Source: Cloeon dipterum
Lineage: Eukaryota; Arthropoda; Insecta; Ephemeroptera; Baetidae
Length of the DNA stretch: 64,000 bases
Assembly (NCBI RefSeq): GCF_949628265.1
Contig: NC_088787.1
Location: 2,532,501-2,596,500 of the forward strand
Reading direction: 5' to 3'
The first letter of the stretch is position 1, and each line of letters begins with the position of its first letter. The position numbers and the translations under genes are program-made. The notes below the pieces were generated by a model. That model was not told where the DNA came from, ran no database searches, and saw only the letters and a list, made by a program, of their open reading frames with translations. Shown here one piece after another: positions 3,601-62,918 of this stretch.

Positions 3601-6600
3601 GCTGATTAGCCCGATAATTGGCGAATCGACCGTTAGATGGCACATCAGGCTGATGGAAATGTAACAGAATACGCGGGAGTGAAATTATTAGGTCGGCACG
3701 CCTCTTTTTCAACGCTTTTGACTGGCCACTGGACTGTCTCCTGATTGGCCTCGCCACATTTCGACGCCATTTTGACTTCTGACCGGCGGGAACCAAAATA
3801 CAGATCGCAAACCCGGACCCCGGTGGGAATTTCGACTGCGCAGAAGGTTTTAATTTGGTTCACGCATGCGCAGTGATCATTTTCAGCCTCCCTGTGAGAT
3901 TTTGAAGCGTTCTGAACTTACTGCGCATGCTTGAGATGCGCATACGTTTACTGCGCAGCTTCAAAATGCTCGAATTTTGAATGCCGACTGATCAACACAG
4001 AATGCGGGAATTAATACAACCCCCGGTGAATAAAATGAAGACAATTTTAATAAAATTCTTGATCGATTTTCCACATTTTTAAAGATTCCATCCTTTTGTA
4101 TACAAAATTCTCATTTCCATCGCTGTGAAATTATGATTTTTGGCCGTTAAAAAGGGAAAGTGCGAACTTCCGCGTGGGTGGTGATGGCTGCTCTCGGCTG
4201 AGCACACAAAAGACTCATCTTTTTTCTTTCCCTTTTTATCCCGCTCTGCTCTCATTACGCGCCTGCCGTTTAATCCCCTTATTGGATATTGATTGTTCGC
4301 CGACGCCGCGTGGCATTTGCATGAAAAAGGAGTCGAGAAACAAAAGCAGTCGGTGCGCGGTGTCCGAGATTGTTGGGCAACAGAAAAATGAAAGAAAGCA
4401 ATTAAAATCCGGCCACTCGAGGTTCGTTTGTACATTTCCTTTGCATCTCTCACGATTCGCTTCACATCTGCAACGACCAGCCCCGCGGCCGTGGCTCTCT
4501 GCATCGCCAATTGGCCGAGATTCTAGTTGAAGAAATCTCTTCACCCGTTTTTATATAAAATAACGCTCAAAGAAAAAATTTAAATATATTCACCCGCCTC
4601 CCTTCCGAGCAGCAGCAGCAGCGGCAAAAAGTTTCTCCCCCGCGGAGTGGCAAACGAGTTTGCGGACGAAATAAGCTTTTTGCTAATCATCCGCGGCCAG
4701 AAAGCAGAAATCGTGTCCCGCCCGCCGGTAATCGAGTCGGTGCAGCGTAATGATCTCTCGGCTAAACGATTCTCCGCTCTCTGCTCTCACTCTCTCTCAC
4801 GCGCGCGGCGCAGTGCGAGATTAATTTTGCGTTTTGACGCCGCCGCGAGTGTTGCTCGGCGGAATTAGCACGCCGACGAGCAAGAAGCAGGGGTAATTTA
4901 GCGCCCCGCAACTTGTCAACTCGCATCAGCTGCTCATCAATCCCAACCCTGCGCTTGTTTCCTTTACGCTTTGAACTTTTCCGTACACCCGAAAACACAC
5001 ACAGGCAGATTCTGTCAAAAGAACGAGACCCGAAATTAAAATACTTCTACGTACGCATTATTTTATTTTTTTGTCTTTAATTTTATGTAATGTATAGATA
5101 GTTATAAAGTTGAAAAATGTTGCACATTTGACCCCTTCTTAGCACCGGAGGTTGTCCAGCAATAAATTGGATATATAAAAGATATTCGGGGGATATCTAA
5201 AGAATAACCGGATGATATCCAAAGGATATCTGGAAGATATACAAAGGATATCCGGAAGATATCCAAAGGATATCCGGAAGATATACAAAGGATATCCGGA
5301 AGATATACAAAGGATATCCGGAAGATATACAAAGGATATCCGGAAGATATACAAAGGATATCCGGAAGATATGCAAAGTACATCCAAAAGATATTCAAAG
5401 GATATCCGGAAGATATACAAATTACATCCGAAAGATATTCAAAGGATATCCGAAAGATATGCAAAGTACATCCGAAAGATATCCAAAGGATATCCGGAAG
5501 ATATACAAATTACATCCGAAAGATATCCAAAGGATATCCGGATGATTTACTTTTGAACTGCCTGATGTCATCAGATATCCTCAGACATCAAATTTCTTGC
5601 CGGGTGTTTAAGAAATATATATTTTATCTTGTCACGTCCATTCAACAGAAAACAAATTTCTAATTAGTTTAAATAATTTTATTGTGTCTGGAGTCCCTGG
5701 TCATGAGAATCAGTAACAGCCGCCTTAAAAGCGTGCAGGAACTTGATAAGGTTGGCTTCGCCGAGCCAGCCGAGGTTGGCAGCCATGTTTTCACTGCAAA
5801 ACGCCGAGCTTGGATGTTCCATGACGTATTTGCACCGCTTTTCGCTTGGAACCTCCTGTGCGCCGTAAATCCTGAGGAAAACGTCAAGGTCGACCAATTT
5901 GGGCAGAAACGTCGACGCAGTCTTCACCAAACCACAGAACATTTTGAAGCAGGGATCGTTTACATCGTTGTGCATGCGGCTCACCGGGCACACGTCCAAC
6001 AGAAGGTATTCCAGGTTGCCAAGGATTTGTTTGTTGAACATTAGAATGAAAAGCTTCTTTAAGTCATAAGGTCTGAACTGCTCTCTTGAGTACAAGGCGA
6101 ATGCCTCCAATTTGGGTGCTCTCAAGATGTTCGACAGGTGAAACTGCTTTTGTGCCAAAAGATCGGTGAATCTGAAGAAAGAAGGGTTCAAATTTATAGA
6201 ATGGACCCGCGGTGATTGATACTTACATGACAGACCACTCAAATTGCTTCAGTTCGGCGAAGGACGTGATGCTGTCATTGTCGTCAGACATTTGCACTCC
6301 GTCCAAACCAAGCATTTCCAGCTTTGGACACAATTCGAAAATCCTCTTAAAGCTGTAAGTACACGCATCCTCGAAAAAATGCCTGATTCTCAAGCTGGTC
6401 AGATTCATCCCGTATTTTTTGAGCAGCTCGTCCGTCTTATTCAGTGGCAGGTCGATTAAGGCCAAGCTCTTGATTTTGGTGAAGTGCATGAACGGGTCGA
6501 CGTCACACACCCTGTCCATCCGAAAGTTCATTTTGATCTGAAACGATAAAATTTCAACTCAGGCTCAGTTTAAATTAAATCTATAATTAACTACCCTCAA

Positions 6601-9600
6601 GTGCGAGACATTGGGGAAAACCTCGTGCACTTTGAGTGGGCAAGGGCAATCCGTGCTCAGGTGCCGAAGAGCCGGTCTCACCGCCTGCTGCAGTTCCGCT
6701 GTCAGGTTAGGCGAAAAGTCGTAATATCCGATTTTGGCGTCATCAGCGTAATTCTGCAGAATTTCAAGATTGGGCAGATGCAACAGACAAAGCTGTGTCA
6801 GCATTCTCTGGTTAATGCGTGGATCGCCAAAGACGAACACTTTCAGGCGGGAAAAACTTTTCTTGAATTTCTCCACGTTTTCTATTCGAAGTTCGAGCTC
6901 GGGAATAATCCTGACGATGAGGTACTCCAGTTTTCTCAATTTCCTGCAAATCAGCTCCACGTCGATGTAGTGAATCTGGTACATTTCCAGGTCAAGGTGA
7001 ATTAATTTTGTCAGCTTCCCGATTGCGAGGCACATTTTCTTAGTTGCGGCTTCGTTTCTTTCTTCACTGCTGCAGTGTCGGAGTTTCTCGTTGACGATCA
7101 GCGATTGGACGTTGGGAGCGTGAATTACAATCAGTTGCAGAATCTATTCCATAATAAATTTATTAAATTAATTCATGTTTTTAATTAGTTCAAACCTCGG
7201 TGACTTTGTTTGTCTTCAGCAATGCGGGGCAGAAGGTCATGAGTCCGTTGAGTTCAATCTTCTTCGTTTGCGGACTGAGCAAAAGTTTAAAAGCCCGCAA
7301 GAGAAATTCAAAAATTTCGAGGTCTCCATCTACTTTTGAACACTTCAGTCGTGTTAGTTCAAGCATAATAATGTCACGGGCAAAGCCAGCTGAAAATAAC
7401 AACTTAATCGAATTGATAGTGCCACTTTTAAAACAACTCACGCAAATTCAAAAGCTTCTCGTTTTGTTGATCAATGAAATATCTAATGTTCTTCACGATT
7501 AACCTGACAGCGTGTTGAAATAAATTGCTCCCGCTCCGGCTCAGGTTCTTTAGCCGTTTTTCCGTTAGTTTCAGTCCGTGTTCGTCGTCCATGGCGAGGC
7601 AAATGAAGGAAAAACGATTGTCGAAATGTAATACTCAGGCTTGGGAAAAGGAAAATATTTTTAACTTTCCTGCAATTAAGAAATATTTCTATGTCTCGTT
7701 TTACTAATTTATTTTTTGTTTATCGTCCTCAGCACAAAAATATATTATTAAAATCCACACTTCAAATATACAAATTCTAATTTTTCAAGTTTTGCCACTG
7801 AAAATTCAATCCTTTCGATAAGCCTGTAGGAATTTGATCAGGTTGGGGTCTCCAAGCCAGTTGTAGGCTGCGGCAGCGCGTTTTTCGTTCAAGTCCTTGG
7901 ACGAATCCTCAATATGGTCATTTTCGAAACTCCTCATTATCAAGGGCCAGGTGTTGTTTGTGCTGTAGAAGTAAAATTGAGGGTTTAATTCTTTCAGTTT
8001 CGGGAGAAACGCGGAGGCATTCTTGATCAGGACGCTCATCTCGTTGAAAGCAGAGTCGTGAGCTTCGCCAAGGTTGATGAACATGGTTCGCGTCATCTTA
8101 AAACTCTCCAGTTGTTGCAGAATTTTCTGCTCCTTGATCAAATCAGAGAGCTGCTGCAAATCCTTAGAGTTTTGGTAGATTTTGCAGCTGAGAGACACTC
8201 TTTTCAATTTCGGCGCTGACAGAATGTTGCTTAGATGGACCAAGCATTTTTCTCTGTGAAAATTATGGAGTTATAAGTGCTAATTTCTTCTAATTATTAT
8301 TCCTACTTTGGAACATTCCACTCAAAATCGATTAGATTGCCAAAAGAACTATTTTTTTCAGAGCTGTCGAGCATGTCCACGTTGTCCAAGAAAAGCGTCT
8401 CCAACTTAGGACATTGAGAGAAAACTCTGTTAAATTTCAAACTGAGAAGCCGGCATTTCAGATTTCCAATTTTCAGGACGCGCAGATTGTGTCCGTATGC
8501 ATCCAGAATTTTGTTCACTGCATATCCACAATCCACATTCATCAAAGTCAGGCTGTCGATTTTCGTAAATCTCAGCAAAGCATCGATTTCGCAGTTACTG
8601 TAGCACTTCTTGAGCTCGAAAATCACCTAAAAATCAGATATTTTTATAACATTTCAAAAGATTATTCTAAAAAAACACACCTTTAAATTGATCACGTTGG
8701 GGAAATTGACGTGAAATTCTTCGTGCGCCGGCACCGTGCACAAATGCTGCAAGGCTAACCTTTTTTCATTGAGCCGGAAAGTTGGTCTTCCAAGTTCTAA
8801 CTCTTGCGGAGCGTAACAATTCGCGTAATTGTGGACAATCTCCAAGTTGGGCAGTTTAAGCAAGCAGAAGTGCGTGAACAGATTGATCAACCTTCCGGAG
8901 GTTTCATCAGCCCTTTTTATCTTAAACTCAGTTTCTCTGAACAGGAAAACTCTCAGCCTGGAAAAACTGGCTTTGAATTTGACGAAATCCGCCTTGGTGA
9001 ATTTATCGAGGTTGCAGTCGAAGGAAATGTTGACAATCAGATGCTCCAAATACTTCAATTTCTTGCACAGCTTCCTCAATTTCGAGTATTTAACCATGCC
9101 GTTCTCCAACTGAAGTTTTCGTAAATTCTTCATTTTAATTATTACTTTGAAAATCTTCTTTTCGTCCACCAGAATTTCTTCTGTTGTAAATAAGAAAATC
9201 AGGGATTGCAGGTTCTCGGCATTTTTTGCAATTAATTTTAAGGCCTGAAATTTGGTGTAGGTTTAAAATTATCATCAGGACTTAAAATCTTTAAATCAAA
9301 CCTTTTTAACGAATTCCTTTTGCTCATTTAAGGGATGTATTTCCTTTAATCCGGATATGGTCACGTGTTTTGATTTTCCCGAGGAAAGCAACAGGGGTAA
9401 TGCATCAAATAGGTTTCTGCATTTTTTCTCGTCATGTAGGCCCGTTTGATTGGTCAGTTTGCTCAAAATTTTAAGCCGTAGAACCCAAGCTTATTTATAA
9501 ATTTTGTAAATGAAAGTATAATTATTAATAAATTAAACTCACGCAATTTTTTCAACTCCGATCTCGTATTTTTACGGTCGAGATAGAACTTGATGTGTTG

Positions 9601-48028: not shown

Positions 48029-51000
48029 ATGTCGGTGAGCAGTTTGGAAAAGTGGAAAATATTTGACTCGTTGAGCGATCAAGAGAAGAGGAGCATCCAT
48101 CTAGCCATTGTTTTCCGTGAGCCTTATTTTGATACATAATAAAAGCTTAGCATTCTTTTTTTTCTAAGGGAGTATAGCCGCACTGAAAAAAAAATAATTT
48201 TTACATTATTTGATACTCTTTATTTTATAGATGTAATCTTAATATCTGATGCAGGAATAAAAAGGGCCTTTTTACGCAATTTGATTTTTCTTATACACAG
48301 TTTTAAATATAAAATTGATCATGCTAAAATGTCGGCACATTTCTGCGTACAAGACAAATTTAACTTATCCACCCTTAATAACATTTGCATTTTGCCGATC
48401 TAGGAGATAATTTAGGGTGTAACGGAATATACGTGACGAAAGAGGACGAAGTTTTCGGCTTGGGAAGCAACGCAAAAGGATGCCTTGGCGCCGGTGACAC
48501 GATTCCACACCCTGTTCCTGCTAGAATCGAAATATTGAGCGGGAAAAAAATTGCAGGTGCTCATCGCCGATTATTTAAACGTTTATTTTTTTTAAATATT
48601 TCATCAGGCCTAGAGTATAGTCCAAGAGTGGACGGCCCTTCGATCTATGCGATTTCAGCATTTGGCTCGGTTTTCGCATGGGGAGGAAATGAACATGGCC
48701 AGCTCGGAATAAAAACGAATCAAAACACCATCGTTCCGACCGAGATATCTGTTAATTTGGGGCAAAAAAGGGTTGTCCAAGTGGCTTGCGGTTTAAATCA
48801 CACCTTGGCTCTCACATCCAACGGACAGGTTTGCATTTCATTATATTTTAATAAAATGCTTTTTTCATTAAAGACGCCATAGGTCTTTGCATTCGGTAAC
48901 AATTGGTGCGGAAAATTAGGCCTGGGAAACGACATCACTGATAAAAATGTCCCAACGATCGTGACTAGCCTCCAACATCCAAATTTTAGAAATGTCGCTG
49001 TTACTGCGGTTGCATGCGAATTCCACACTTCATTGGCACTCCTTGATTCAAGAGAGGTAATAATTGTTGATCAGCAGTGGGGGCCAAATTCGTGAGAGAG
49101 CGTGTAGAAGTGAATAGTTTTTATCAAAATTATGATATTACGATGGAATGGATCAGAAAACACATTTCGAGATCTCAAAATGGTGACAACTATCTGACGC
49201 CATCTTGGATCTAACTTCAACGCGCATTTCTGGCCCCCGGTGGTGAAAAGATCGCCTCAAAAAGTTTTGATTTCTGATTCTCAATGAAAATATAATATTT
49301 TTCTCTTTCGTCATCGAAGGTTCTTATTTGGGGCCATTTGTTGACTGGAACAGCTTTGCAACCGACGCCAAGCAGCCAGACTGTGCCGCTCAGGGTGACT
49401 GGCATGGAAGGCGTCGCTATAACCAAAATTCTGGGCGGCCAATCGCACGCCCTTGCTCTCTCCAGCGATGGGAAAATCTATGTTTGGGGCCAGTTGGAAG
49501 TCGGCACCGCAGACATGATGGCAGTCCCTACAGAAATTTCTGCATATATCGGCAGGTATGAAGGTCATTTCCACTCAATTCAGGTATTTGGATTAATTGC
49601 TTCCTCAGAGTGAAGGATATCGCTGTTGGAAGCATTAGCGACGGCCACTCAACTTGTGCAGCAATTACCGAAACCAATCAGGTTTACGCGTGGGGTAAAT
49701 TAAAAGGTGCAAAAACTTGCTTGTTTTTAATTATAAAGACCGTCTTTGACGAAGTTTCTGACCAAAAAGGCCAGCGCGACGTGCGAACTTTTTTTTCCCG
49801 TCAAAACAAAATGAATGCGAGAAGTGCGCATGCGTCAGAGCTGGCTGGATTTGGCAAAGAAGTCATTCGTACAGCTGCGGTCTCTCTGCAAGTGCTCAAA
49901 CCAGCCCTGACGCATGCGCACTTCTCGCATTCATACTGTTTAGGCGGGAAAAAAGGTTCGCACGTTGCGCTGGACTTTTTGTTAGGAAAAAACATCCACT
50001 TTACCTAATTCGACCCTCAAGAATCGATTGGTGGGCTCAGAAAATTCGTCAAAGACGGTCTTCAATGTAGACAGCTGATGGCAGATATTATTTTTCAGCT
50101 TTATGATTTACTTTAAAATGTCAAGCCTAGAATTTAATTAAAAATTACACCACATAATTTAATTATTTGGTACTCGCAGTGAACAATTTAATGTCAAGAT
50201 TCCTAATATAAATTCACAGGTCAAACAATTTTGCTTCCAACGCTGACTCCGCATTCGTCCCTAGACGAGGTTTTCGCACCAATCACAGTCCGGCCTTTGC
50301 GTCCGACTATAGATCCATTCAGACCAATCAAAAAGAATGACACGCTCACCAACCGCATTAAACAATCGTTCAATGATCCCGTAATTTACATTTTTGAACT
50401 TTATAAAGAGAAAAATTACACATATAAATCCAATATCAGGAGACTGCTGATCTCGAGTTCGTCGCAGAGGGGAGAAAAATCCACGTCCACTCGTACATTT
50501 TGATGCTGCAATGCGTCGTCTTCAAAACGATGTTCAAGGGCGATTGGAAGGAGACCCATGCCAGGTTTTCACGACCTGAATTTCAAATTTTCTGTTTTTC
50601 TAATCGATAATTTTATTTAGGGAGCAGAAAATCGACGGGTACGGCTACAAGGTCGTCTATGCCTTTTTCAAATATTTCTACACCAACGAGCTCGAGCGAA
50701 TGGAACCAGACACAGCTTTTGGTAAAAATAATTCAAATCCCCCTGCTCAATTACAATTTTTTTTAGAATTGTTCTCCCTGGCACACTTTTATCAAGTAAA
50801 CGAACTACAAAATGACTGCATGGAAGCGATCAAAATGGGCCTGACAGAGGAAAATGCAGTTTTGATTTACGACAAAGCATTGGGAGCTGGTTTAAAGGTA
50901 GTCGCGGTCTAATGATTTTTGGTGTAATAGGATTTTTCAGGAACTCGAGGACTTCATTTTCGATTATTGCATGAACCACCTCACTGCCGTTGTGTCGAGC

Positions 51001-54382: not shown

Positions 54383-54724
54383 TCACACATCGGTAGCTAG
54401 GTCTCCCATCCGCACGTACTGCTCATCCGTTTCTCTCACAGGCCCGACGTCATCGTAGAGCGGCACCGAATAAATGGCGTCCCTGTCATTCGCCGCCACG
54501 GGATTGGCGGGTCCGATTTCGTCGTAAATTTGCCCGACGGACAGGGGCTGCGATGGCACGGATTCTTGAACAGCCGGCGATGCATTTTCAAGTTTCTTTA
54601 GCAGCGAAAGAATCCACAGAATGATGCCAATGACGAAACAGAAAACGACTGCATTCCCGAATGAGAGAACGACGTTCAACTTGCAAACAGTCGAGTTGGA
54701 GACAAAATCGTGGAGGAACCCCAT
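54383..54724 (-). CDS. Small single-pass membrane protein with tyrosine-motif tail
   Basis: One coding exon of 113 aa (54724-54383). The 5'UTR exon probably ends at 54813 (AGAGAAG|GTGAGT on the minus strand), with an acceptor just before the ATG. The short N-terminal segment has a possible N-glycosylation site (NST). It is followed by a hydrophobic helix (about residues 18-42, FGNAVVFCFVIGIILWILSLL) closed by KK. The tail has YDEIGP (Y67), YSVP (Y85), YDDVGP (Y90) and YVRM (Y103). YDEI/YDDV resemble Src-family SH2 targets and YVRM fits the PI3K-type YxxM rule, by established motif knowledge; phosphorylation is inferred. The YDDVGP motif recurs in the yellow-family gene at 59836-62683. No known family recognised. 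Confidence 0.72.
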   Translation of the reverse strand: MGFLHDFVSNSTVCKLNVVLSFGNAVVFCFVIGIILWILSLLKKLENASPAVQESVPSQPLSVGQIYDEIGPANPVAANDRDAIYSVPLYDDVGPVRETDEQYVRMGDLATDV

Positions 54725-58302: not shown

Positions 58303-59835
58303 ATTCGCAGGGAGGACCGTTCAATTCAAATTTCTCTCGTAGACTGTTGATTATTGAAATGTTTATTGTTGGGCCTCATCGATTGTTTGGAAGAACAGCA
58401 AAATCCAACAATAGAGTAACTGATATTGACAATAGAGGTGAATTTGTTTATTGGAAAAAAAATTTAGCAAATAGGAACACACGTTTCCAAAAAATCAATA
58501 ATTTCTCTGAACTAGATAATAAGTTAAAAAATACAATCATTCGTCCCCGTTAGAGTATTTACAGTTGACACGCAATTTGCACAATCAGCCTCATATTTGA
58601 GCACGTAAAATTAAATAAATTAAACGTCTAGAATGAACGTAAAGTAGGATCAAGTCTGAAATTGCAGTGCTAGTTGATTCATTCCCAATTCTTTTTCTGC
58701 TGGTCAATTAAACCATAATTTTCTGTAAAGCAAAGGCGGTAAAAAACATTTTCATTTTTTAATAAAAACAGGAAGTAAATAGTTAAAATATGTCAATGTG
58801 TCTGCACTGTTTAGAAAAATTCCATTTCTTCCAAGGCAGTGTTAAGGACAACAGCATATGTAAAAAAAACGAGGAAGTCTATAAAACTCTTTTAATCTAG
58901 AGTCAAGTAATCTTATTTAGTTTTATGTAGACCTATTTTTTAATACGCAACTAGAGGTTAAAATTAATAAATTTCAATTTAAAAGAAGCTATATATTAAT
59001 TTATAATATGATGACCACGAGTTTTATTTATTTTGAAATCTATTATAAACCAATGGCGTAATTCTCGGCTCTTCGGCCGTCAAATTTTCTCAACAAAAAT
59101 TTTGCCGGGCATACATATCACCAGAGTTTTGTTGAAAATGTATGCAACTGGTTCGACTTAAGCGGTGAGCAGGTGGAATATCCTGGGAAAATAAACAGCG
59201 CCATTCATTTTAGCCTGGCCATCATTATAAAAATAAATTTATAATGAAATAGAAATGCAAAATGAAGAAAATGTGAGTCCAACGCACAGCAATGTTTAGC
59301 TGGATGCTTAATTTTTAATGTCAAACATAATACAGGTTGGATTTAATTTGAAATAAAGGTAAACACAATTACCTTATTTGTAAATTAAAAAAATGATGTT
59401 GGATTTCAGGATTTGTCTTTTTAAGAAAAATGCAAATAAATAGGCAAATAACAATAAGATTGAGGCAGAGAACGCTCAAGAAATTCTGGCCAGCTTTCTT
59501 AGAAAGTTATTTATTGAAGGATGCCTTTTACTAGACTTATAAATGGATTTGATAAGAAAAACCAACAGTTTCATTAAGGAAAATGCGATAATAATATTTA
59601 TTTAACTCGAAAAATCCCTACAAATAAAATAATACTTTATTAAAAATGACGTAAAACCATATGGCGTTAAGTTCAGCTCTATTGTAATTTTTATCTTACT
59701 ATATTTATTAAAATGCAACACAATATTATATAAATTAGTCTCAGGAGTCAACTGTGTGCTGAGAGATTATTATAACAATGAGAAAAACAGTATAATAAAT
59801 TATTAGTTGAACATTAAAGCCGAGAATCGCCTCTG
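58303..59835. other. Intergenic, no gene seen
   Basis: AT-rich. Around 59095-59115 there is AAAATTTTGCCGGGCATAC, similar to one end of the MITE at 56471, possibly a solo remnant. No open frame with protein character. Confidence 0.55.
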
Positions 59836-62683
59836 CTAGGGTAACACCTTAAGATACTGCACCGACTCTGCTGGCTTGCGTCCCGATTTTTTGTTCCTTG
59901 ATGGCCCTGAAGAAGGCCCTGGTCCGACGTCATCGTAAATATTATCCGGCTCCGTCGGACCAACATCGTCATACACCGGTTCTGATGATTTTCCCGCTTT
60001 GGCTTTTCCCATCAGATGCAAAGGTACCTCGTAGGGCTCAGGAGGAGGGTTCCTGGCACTGGCGTAATCAGGGTCAACTTCAGAGTACAGCGGTTCAACA
60101 GGATTATTCTCAGGTATGCCCGGTTCGGAATTTTCAGGTGCGACGTCGTCGTACACTGGGTCGTCCGGAATTTCCGCACGATTGTCCATCGGTATCTGTC
60201 TCGAAGAGGTTTGCATTTTACTCATCCTCAGGGTCAGCCACGCAATGACAGTGCCGCTCAAGACCAAGCAACTGAAGCAACACACGAGCAACCAAATCAG
60301 AATTGTGACCAAAGACTGACTTTGGACAAGACCAGCGCAACAATCGCTTGTTTCGTTTGATTTCAGAGCCGGTTGGGGAGTTCCGGTCTTGCTTGTCGGC
60401 GTTTGCGTGCTCTTCATGACTTTCGAAGTGTCTTGAATCAGGGTAGCTTGAGGCGTAGTCAAGGCTGTGAAAAGCAAAGGGACGGGTGAGTAATTATAAT
60501 CTCTGTGGGCGGTGTTTAGTCTTCCGAATTATATTCAGAAACTGAAATACGTCGAGAATTTAAATTTCTTCATAAATTTTGGTTTAATGTTGTTTACTTA
60601 ATAACTCTTAGGAACTCGAATGTATAAATCACAGATCTAATTTATCTTTAAATCAATATTTGGCTTATATAGCGCAAAATTTTATCGTATTTCTCCCGCA
60701 ATAGAAAGTGCTATTGGATTTTATTTACCTGTGGACGTGCTGAATAAATATGAACTTGCGCCAACTGCACTCTTGAGTAGTTTATGCCTAGCTTTAGACC
60801 AACCCTCAGATTGATTTCTCTCCGTCATCCATAAACTGCCACTCGTGTCTAAGGCAAAAGTAAATGGCCAAACAGCATCCAGTTCTCCGACCTAAAAGAG
60901 TGCAGTTATTTGATCAAGTTAGCCTGACAAAGCATAATTTTGAAGGTAAAAGTGAGGATTAATTGTAATATTTAAATTCAATTTCTTTCATCAAATTTAA
61001 TCGAAAATTTGCCTGTGACAGTATGTAGATCATTCTTGGGTCGCAACAAACAAGGTTCGCCAATTGTTGCAATAAGTGAAAAGGGTAAAACAATGGTAAA
61101 AATCATAATTTAAGGCATATACAAAATTTAAACAGTATTATCGGGCAGAATTTAAATTTCCTATTTTTCCACATTATTGATTTTTGCAACGAATATTACT
61201 ACCTCATGGAACCGCTGCTCAAGAAAGGGCTCCGAAATATTCCATTTGGAGAGGTAATTCTGGAATGAAATGGCGGCATACAAGACATTGGCACTGTCGA
61301 TTAGCATTCTGTAAGGTGTTCCAGTCCACTCGCCGATTAATTTCACAGCAGCGTTTCCGCCTTCGTTCTTCAACTCAGACACAGACACCGAGTACAGTTC
61401 TTTGGAATCAAATCTTCTAAGGTACAACTGTCTCGCTTCCCTGGTGGGAGAAAGGGCCAAGGAAATCCAACGTCTCCCTGGGGTTTTAACTGACCAGGAT
61501 TTGTCCATTTTACTATAAACGACAACGTGCTCTGAAAAAAAGTCCGTGATGTACGCAAGATAATCGTCTGTCGTTTTGTCGACCACTACATCGTACAGGT
61601 TCCTTTTTCCATATGAATGAGAGACGACTGTGTCCGGGAAGTGGTGAACGCGCTCGATTGTGTCGTTCTTGAGAAGGTTGAATATCCAAACTTTGCTTGC
61701 ACAATTTCTGCTACCGTTATCAAGAATCCACAACCGACCATCAGGGTCAGTTTCCATTCCTCTGGCCCTCTGAATAGAACCGCAGTTGTATTTTTTCTGG
61801 CAAGAGAAATATAAAAAACAGTTATTATTAAGTAGAATTATCTATTTGATCTTTAAACGAATGGAAATGTTGCAATTTATCCCAAAAAGCAGTTAATTTT
61901 TAAAAAGTTCAATGAAATTAATTTTGTATTTACTTTTAATAATGTCATATTAAAAATGATTGACTGTGCGAATTCTTTGACTTTCGGTTTCTTATGTAAG
62001 AAACTTTAAAAGTACGAACAAAAGCTTAATTTCAAAGTTTTAAAACTGTACTTTTGCACTTAGAACTTTTTTTGTGACACATAAATTGTGATATTTTGAC
62101 GTATTCCAAAATCGCACCTGTAAATACATATTTCGGATTAATGGAATAAAAATTGTTTGAATTTGAATTTGCATTTTCCTTAGAAATATTTATTTTGCGT
62201 GTATAGTAAAAAACGATGCAAAATAAAAGAAATTTAGAAACTTTAGAACCTGTCCGAAATTTCAGACACCGTACTATTACAATAATTTGTATTAAATGAG
62301 TTGGTTCCTCGTAAAATTTTCCCAGTTTATTCCAACAGAAGCTCAAAACAGTTTTCGATTCAGAGACTTACATGTAAATGTAAATTCCAGGATGGAAAAG
62401 GAGCAAGCTTTGGAGGTGCAGTCGACGTGCCCCTCTTTGGCAGCCACACCAAAGTGGCGGGAATTCCGTCTTCCAAATCAAGGCTTAGAAACAGCCTCTC
62501 TCCAAAAATAGCCATGTATCGGAAATAAACATTGCCTGGCTTGTATTCATCTTTCATCTGTCCGATTGAACTATCAGTTCCTGATGGCCAGATGAAATCT
62601 AATTCATCCCACTGGTAGACGGTTGTGAAGTTGACGGCGTTGGCCAGGCACAGGCCATGCAAAAAGATGGCAGCAAAGAACAT
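59836..62683 (-). CDS. Yellow/MRJP-family ectodomain fused to transmembrane helix and tyrosine-motif tail
   Basis: Exons in transcript order: 62683-62372, 61796-61203, 60891-60729, 60464-59836; 1698 nt, 565 aa. Signal peptide MFFAAIFLHGLCLANA. Yellow-domain hallmarks are VYQWDELDFIWPS, GIPATLVWLP, PPKLAPFPSWN, GRLWILDNG, DYLAYITDF and SGSLWMTERN, to about residue 350. A Thr/Ser/Pro stalk (357-405, with CC at 398-399) leads to a membrane helix (about 407-433), then a 130-aa tail with Y461 DDV, Y483 SEV, Y501 EVPL, Y521 DDV, Y533 DDV and Y560 LKV. Y521 and Y533 have ITAM-like spacing. The whole chain is joined by consensus splice sites in phase. Yellow proteins are normally secreted. A 5'UTR exon ends at 62919 (CGCAGAAG|GTGAGT). 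Yellow assignment is strong; signalling is inferred. Confidence 0.9.
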
Positions 62684-62918
62684 TGTGATCGAGCTGAAAA
62701 CAAAAACATCAAATTTCTAACAATATCTTAAATCGTTCTAGTACAAATAAGATATCTATGCTTGATCGTCTATAGAAAATGTTTATCGTTAAAAATATTT
62801 GCTAAAATATTTATTCATTCTAGTAGAGTCTCAGTGAGTTAAAAACGAAATACTTGAAAAACTGAGCTGAGACAACTTTAGCAAAATCCTGAAAATATAA
62901 AAATTTATGACTCACCTT

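Follow-up and report, generated by a model that had tools for sequence, protein, structure and literature searches.

Known members of the yellow/royal-jelly (MRJP) family are secreted proteins. The window analyzed here, a stretch of 64 000 nucleotides of the Cloeon dipterum genome (C2:2532501-2596500), contains a gene whose yellow domain is followed by a stalk, a membrane helix and a cytoplasmic tail with several tyrosine motifs, which raises the question of what kind of protein this is and whether it stands alone. The reading that is favored, with a probability of roughly 0.6, is that the gene belongs to a large tandem family of recognition receptors with a yellow propeller as the ectodomain and phosphotyrosine signaling through the tail, plausibly serving defence.

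The gene model given in a preliminary description of this DNA proved to be exact in its coordinates: all borders of the four coding exons (Table 1) are of the GT-AG type, and the phases (0, 0 and 1) match between exons. A non-coding first exon, read by eye, probably ends at 62916, with the following acceptor before 62693. The protein starts with a hydrophobic signal peptide, and the MRJP domain (PF03022) is recognized with an E value of 7.5e-17 (62.1 bits against a curated cut-off of 19.8); a search of PDB sequences with the protein returned Apis MRJP1 (E = 3.4e-12), with whose cysteines Cys109 and Cys136 of exon 2 align. Ser, Thr and Pro make up 41% of the stalk, and the tail contains seven tyrosines (461, 483, 490, 501, 521, 533 and 560). 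Pfam, the PDB match, hydropathy and the tyrosine count thus bear out the architecture described earlier (signal peptide, yellow domain, Thr/Pro stalk, one helix and a tail with at least six tyrosines), and the two YDDV motifs reported to lie 12 residues apart are those at Tyr521 and Tyr533. The architecture and the family assignment are secure. The gene shares with the yellow/MRJP family the MRJP domain, the signal peptide and the two aligned cysteines; it and its relatives differ by the stalk, the tyrosine tail, the number of copies (more than 100) and the selected loops, and exon 4 encodes a membrane helix and tail in place of the anchorless, secreted form that is usual for the family.

Table 1. 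Positions of gene features and of a tail-only frame in the window.
Feature	Position	Strand	Remarks
Yellow-domain gene	62683-59836	-	Four coding exons, 565 aa
Coding exon 1 (residues 1-104), encoding the signal peptide and blade 1	62372..62683	-	ATG, GT donor, phase 0; paralogues align along the exon
Coding exon 2 (residues 105-302), encoding blades 2-5	61203..61796	-	Phase 0 at either end; AG/GT borders
Coding exon 3 (residues 303-356 and one further base), encoding blade 6	60729..60891	-	Phase 1 at its end; AG/GT borders
Coding exon 4, encoding the stalk, the membrane helix and the cytoplasmic tail, with the stop	59836..60464	-	In-phase AG acceptor; same exon after exons 1-3 in paralogues
Membrane helix, about residues 408-431	60241..60312	-	Core without charged residue; hydropathy
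Cytoplasmic tail, residues 432-565, 134 aa	59839..60240	-	
Site 1, Y461 DDV, then APE	60142..60153	-	Tyr in 18/20 tails, YDxV in 14/20
Site 2, Y483 SEV	60076..60087	-	Tyr in 19/20 tails
Site 3, Y501 EVP	60022..60033	-	Y-E/D-x-P in 20/20 tails
Site 4, Y521 DDV	59962..59973	-	Tyr in 17/20 tails (one tail gapped), YDxV in 15/20
Site 5, Y533 DDV	59926..59937	-	YDxV in 20/20 tails
Site 6, VQY560LKV, ITIM-like	59845..59856	-	Tyr in 20/20 tails; strict ITIM spelling in 13/20
AATAAA polyadenylation signal, first of several past the stop	59704..59709	-	
Tail-only frame, 113 aa: about 17 aa outside, helix, tail	54383..54724	-	Tail with YDEI, YSVP, YDDVGP, YVRM; adaptor-like

The window also contains other genes and repeats. 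On the plus strand, a nitric oxide synthase gene lies at 19.5-31.5 kb (PF02898 in one frame; extent by eye) and tandem RCC1-repeat genes lie at 34-53 kb (one frame by Pfam, the others by eye), and a frame at 50604-50909 has a BTB-like look with no Pfam match. The minus strand carries tandem leucine-rich-looking genes at 5.7-12.2 kb, two frames of which had no Pfam match at 0.01, and at 58272-56911 a gene of several exons with a signal peptide and a C-terminal membrane helix that is CAP-like by eye, one frame of which had no Pfam match. A minisatellite-like array at 5105-5660 is open in several frames, and one dispersed repeat seems to recur at 15.4-15.8, 19.9-20.5, 26.5-26.8, 33.9-34.2 and 49.6-50.1 kb. 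The genome as a whole gave five 7tm_6 matches, one of them to an Orco-like exon, which marks it as that of an insect; a search for odorant-binding proteins gave one match, compared with 191 such genes counted in the Cloeon dipterum genome paper (PMC7250882), and for COX1 one weak match below the cut-off and no mitochondrial gene were found.

The window gene is one of many in its own genome. With a consensus-like ectodomain query, 121 candidates were scored out of 950 first-look candidates, and all 121 match the region of exon 2; at least 121 loci with this central yellow exon are therefore present, a floor for loci and not a count of working genes because some carry stop codons. Clade A accounts for 84 of the scored loci (identity of at least 62%), and 37 are clade B-like (42-53%), the exons 2 of clades A and B being about 41-49% identical, and by hand count 102 of the 121 lie within a region of 5 Mb (C2:0.35-5.35 Mb). 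The MRJP model gave 199 exon matches in the genome; among those listed, most are on C2 at 0.38-4.6 Mb, with another group at C1:18.95-18.99 Mb. Matches to the tail exon number 99 at E <= 1 and 69 at E <= 0.001, some of them in two pieces or with stops. In the copy L016 (C2:2604000-2612999) the tail differs from that of the window gene by dN 0.05 and dS 0.17, and the ectodomain by dN 0.19 and dS 0.39; since the tails are nearly alike while the ectodomains differ, gene conversion of exon 4 is possible. A more distant yellow gene (L004; C3:14510456-14514085) matches exons 2 and 3 at 33-34% identity, and its third exon encodes a short hydrophobic C-terminus that by eye resembles a GPI signal. A membrane-tethered single gene of the kind that L004 suggests is our guess for the ancestor of the family.

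The receptor reading depends on exon 4 being part of the gene. Among the paralogous loci that were fetched, the tail exon lies downstream of exons 1-3 on the same strand, as judged from sequence matches alone, and because it follows the yellow exons in these paralogues too, we regard it as part of one gene. Of the 24 models with complete exons 1-3, the window gene included, 20 have a complete exon 4; one of the other four is truncated where its stretch stops, and three left the model-building script without it. Two of these three (L018 and L030) show exon-4 matches in separate comparisons, and the third (L015, minus strand) shows none; ten further anchors were incomplete and are outside the 24-model set. 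The script sought splice sites in the phases of the window gene, so that the agreement in phase is partly by construction, with order and strand unaffected. The preliminary description had itself pointed to the danger that the exon at 60464-59836 is a separate gene and the model an artefact, and an in-frame ATG is indeed present in the stalk part of the exon. However, this ATG is not followed by a signal peptide, and the exon order and strand conserved among the paralogues make a separate gene highly improbable. At another locus (L042; C5:26464500-26470500), two clade-A copies lack an exon 4 within the 6 kb that were fetched, so that ectodomain-only copies seem to exist; a frame that is thioredoxin-like by eye follows the last copy there.

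Diversifying selection at a limited set of ectodomain sites is clear. For 19 ectodomains (355 codons), the comparison of models M1a and M2a gave a 2dlnL of 255, with 7.6% of codons at an omega of 3.57; the site model was implemented by us, with naive posteriors and with branch lengths from IQ-TREE kept in fixed proportions under a single scaling factor. The value was 249 for the 312 gap-free codons, and when the ectodomain was divided into thirds, each with its own tree, values of 84, 84 and 51 were obtained, recovering 19 of the 21 sites along with three additional ones. These 21 sites, with a posterior above 0.95, are residues 50, 53, 55, 70, 71, 72, 114, 134, 165, 167, 170, 190, 191, 231, 233, 234, 264, 281, 282, 309 and 310. 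As a control, the same ten long genes gave 3.8 for the tail (126 codons, not significant) and 127 for the ectodomain, the tail test being less powerful because of its fewer codons. Average dN/dS differs little between the two parts (NG86 medians of 0.57 for 171 ectodomain pairs and 0.48 for 45 tail pairs), and it is the site model that separates them. Gene conversion between tandem copies could inflate the signal of the site model. In clade B, the mean entropy of exon 2 (eight sequences) is 2.04 at the 12 hot positions versus 0.71 at the 178 others (p = 4e-7); this set was cut at 55% identity to exon 2 of L027, which left out L030 (48.5%).

On strands assigned by eye, the selected sites are concentrated in certain loops. 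Six A-B-C strand repeats are visible in the ectodomain sequence, and 18 of the 21 sites lie in the loops that precede strand A or join strands B and C, which together comprise 81 of 314 positions (hypergeometric 3.7e-9); the other three are at or adjoining the edges of these loops. None of the 21 falls in an A-B turn or in the C-to-D part, and no hot site is found in two of the 12 expected loops (before A in blade 4, B-C in blade 6). The D-A and B-C loops of four-stranded blades lie on one face of a propeller. The hot sites would thus form one face of the propeller, on a strand assignment made by eye after the sites were known. A structure prediction of exon 2 alone without an alignment had a mean pLDDT of 41, which is too low for use.

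In the tail, each of six tyrosine sites (Table 1) recurs in 17 to 20 of the 20 long tails compared, which represent two clades. To be included, an open frame had to reach 70 aa and to encode, downstream of a hydrophobic stretch, two or more Y[DE]x[VIL] motifs; the 24 tails obtained comprise 11 of clade A, nine of clade B, two of which (L029 and L039) come from stretches without a recognized yellow exon, and four from other proteins, which were set aside. Because the filter required two such motifs, the conservation counts are biased upwards. The spacing between sites 4 and 5 is 12 residues in 17 tails and eight in two, and one tail is without site 4. At the DNA level, the spelling YD[D/E]VGP occurs 62 times in the genome, 55 of them at C2:0.6-5.35 Mb, versus four times for the reversed pattern; on account of this excess and of the conserved sites, the motifs are not attributable to chance.

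The kind of signaling motif can be narrowed from the spelling of these sites. The tail had been described as ITAM-spaced, and the spacing indeed stands, in 17 of the 20 tails; it fits the strict ITAM, YxxI/L-x(6-8)-YxxI/L, but both window sites have Val at +3 instead of Ile/Leu, for which reason the strict ITAM was rejected, and the YxEV, YExP and QYLxV sites are outside an ITAM. The last site, VQYLKV, has the ITIM spelling (S/I/V/L)xYxx(I/V/L). Three YDxV cores are present in the window tail, and Tyr461, in YDDVAPE, matches in sequence the full consensus of the Nck SH2 domain, given as pYDxV(AYST)x(DEC) (PMC2661883). Judged by spelling, the motifs would fit Nck/Dock-type YDxV sites with an ITIM-like last site better than an ITAM.

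Long and short tails coexist within one clade. Among 19 complete clade-A models, ten are long, seven are short and two were left unlabeled; the short forms end 32-38 residues past the helix with no more than two tyrosines, and in some of them the C-terminal letters seen in long tails are retained but the tyrosine block is missing (L021 and L022 versus L018). The long and short labels require four changes on the ectodomain tree versus a shuffled mean of 6.0, so that they are partly clustered, with weak branch support. Small tail-only membrane proteins also occur. The 113-aa frame of the window (no Pfam family at 0.01) has what by eye is likely to be a short intron in its 5' region. Locus L017 encodes at 7937-8506 (plus strand) an adaptor-like protein with a signal peptide, an ectodomain of about 30 aa with one cysteine, a helix and a tail with YHEI, YEFV, two YDDVGP, YEEM and YLRI, and L033 contributes a further small protein of the cluster with the same motifs. 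These three could be adaptors or remnants. A pairing of short forms and adaptors like that of DAP12 was rejected, the membrane helices being without charges: a charged residue of this type is found in one of seven short forms and one of 20 modeled helices, and inspection revealed no pairing charge in any helix core of the tail-only proteins. Elsewhere, a 390-aa frame (L035; C2:2731512-2734721) joins a Ser/Thr/Pro-rich mucin-like stretch and a helix to a related tail, so the tail may be common to other ectodomains, and a related tail exon ending in EEQYLKVLP (L025/L034; C2:4098177-4098698) has no recognized yellow exon within the fetched stretch.

A receptor function of the family is probable on this evidence, and its mechanism may be pictured as follows. 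The yellow propeller would form the ectodomain, with the before-A and B-C loops as one face that binds varied ligands, and the stalk and single helix would anchor it in the membrane. Clustering would allow Src-family kinases to phosphorylate the conserved tail tyrosines; the YDxV sites may then recruit Nck/Dock-type SH2 adaptors, leading to actin, and a phosphatase, for example Corkscrew, could be drawn to the ITIM-like last site, while tail-less copies may serve as decoys or modulators. The most likely role is that blood cells or epithelia use these receptors to recognize microbes or parasites, and this is the weakest step of the argument. The fullest version, a germline repertoire of more than 100 propeller immune receptors with hypervariable loops on one face as a counterpart of the binding loops of antibodies or VLRs, a shared multi-motif tail, decoys and tail-only adaptors, is put forward tentatively, the odds being somewhat against it.

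Other roles must be weighed against the same observations. Recognition in reproduction is just as typically accompanied by diversifying selection and tandem expansion, and the proteins might be receptors for mates or gametes, with a face that tracks fast-evolving partners and a tail that signals on contact with gametes or the tract; however, more than 100 copies, YDxV tails and truncated forms seem more like defence repertoires, and we regard a reproductive role as unlikely. Alternatively, the protein might be a membrane-tethered yellow protein concerned with cuticle, melanin or amine binding, whose tail serves only trafficking through YxxPhi, in line with the endocytic signal raised as an alternative in the preliminary description. 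Yellow proteins do have roles in pigmentation and cuticle, and YxxV fits the YxxPhi sorting signal. This alternative is nevertheless weakened because the invariant Y-(E/D)-x-P site, found in 20 of 20 tails, is not YxxPhi and because acidic residues follow most of the tail tyrosine sites; moreover, selection limited to a few loops would not be expected of an enzyme or of a sorting function, which leaves the trafficking role quite unlikely. Chemosensory or neuronal receptors, with each copy in few cells and a face binding small water-borne molecules, would agree with a large tandem family, and yellow relatives secreted by sand flies bind biogenic amines, but a phosphotyrosine tail would be unusual in that setting, as insect chemoreceptors are to our knowledge ion channels or GPCRs, and such a role is decidedly improbable. 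The membrane receptor proposed originally, in which a yellow propeller serves as the ectodomain and the tail signals by phosphotyrosine, is well supported by the conservation and the selection pattern.

Several known systems resemble this receptor family in part. The paired receptors KIR, LILR and NITR likewise form tandem clusters with diversified ectodomains and long and short tails; they differ in their Ig folds, and their short forms pair with adaptors via a charged helix, which is absent in six of the seven short forms here. CEACAM3, a granulocyte phagocytic receptor of vertebrates, has one helix, an immunoglobulin ectodomain and two tail tyrosines in its motif; nephrin is a single gene; and Draper, like the present family an insect surface receptor with tyrosine motifs, is one gene with splice forms and an ectodomain of EGF repeats. 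CEACAM3 has an ITAM-like tail that recruits Nck via pY-D/E-D/E-V, Nck binding driving bacterial uptake (PMC3308951), and the nephrin tail has three YDxV motifs (PMC11247170), as does the window tail, below an Ig-like ectodomain in a scaffold of kidney filtration (PMC12203975). The ITAM-like tail and Nck-type motifs are thus shared with CEACAM3, the function of which has been shown, whereas the present family is known from sequence. In insects, Draper-I has an ITAM and Draper-II an ITIM within a Src42A-Draper-Shark pathway (PMC4503800), so that ITAM/ITIM logic is in use there.

No large and diversified family of insect membrane receptors with tails like those of immunoreceptors is known to us. 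In the open-access literature searched, neither a diversified family of yellow-propeller receptors nor a comparable insect phosphotyrosine repertoire was found, on which ground this kind of receptor is rated as new, such an absence being a weak argument; the published description of the Cloeon dipterum genome (PMC7250882) mentions in its main text neither 'royal jelly' nor any word that starts with 'yellow'. If confirmed, the family would add a new scaffold for recognition repertoires beside the Ig, LRR and lectin folds, and would give a new role to the yellow/royal-jelly proteins, which are best known as secreted pigment or royal-jelly proteins.
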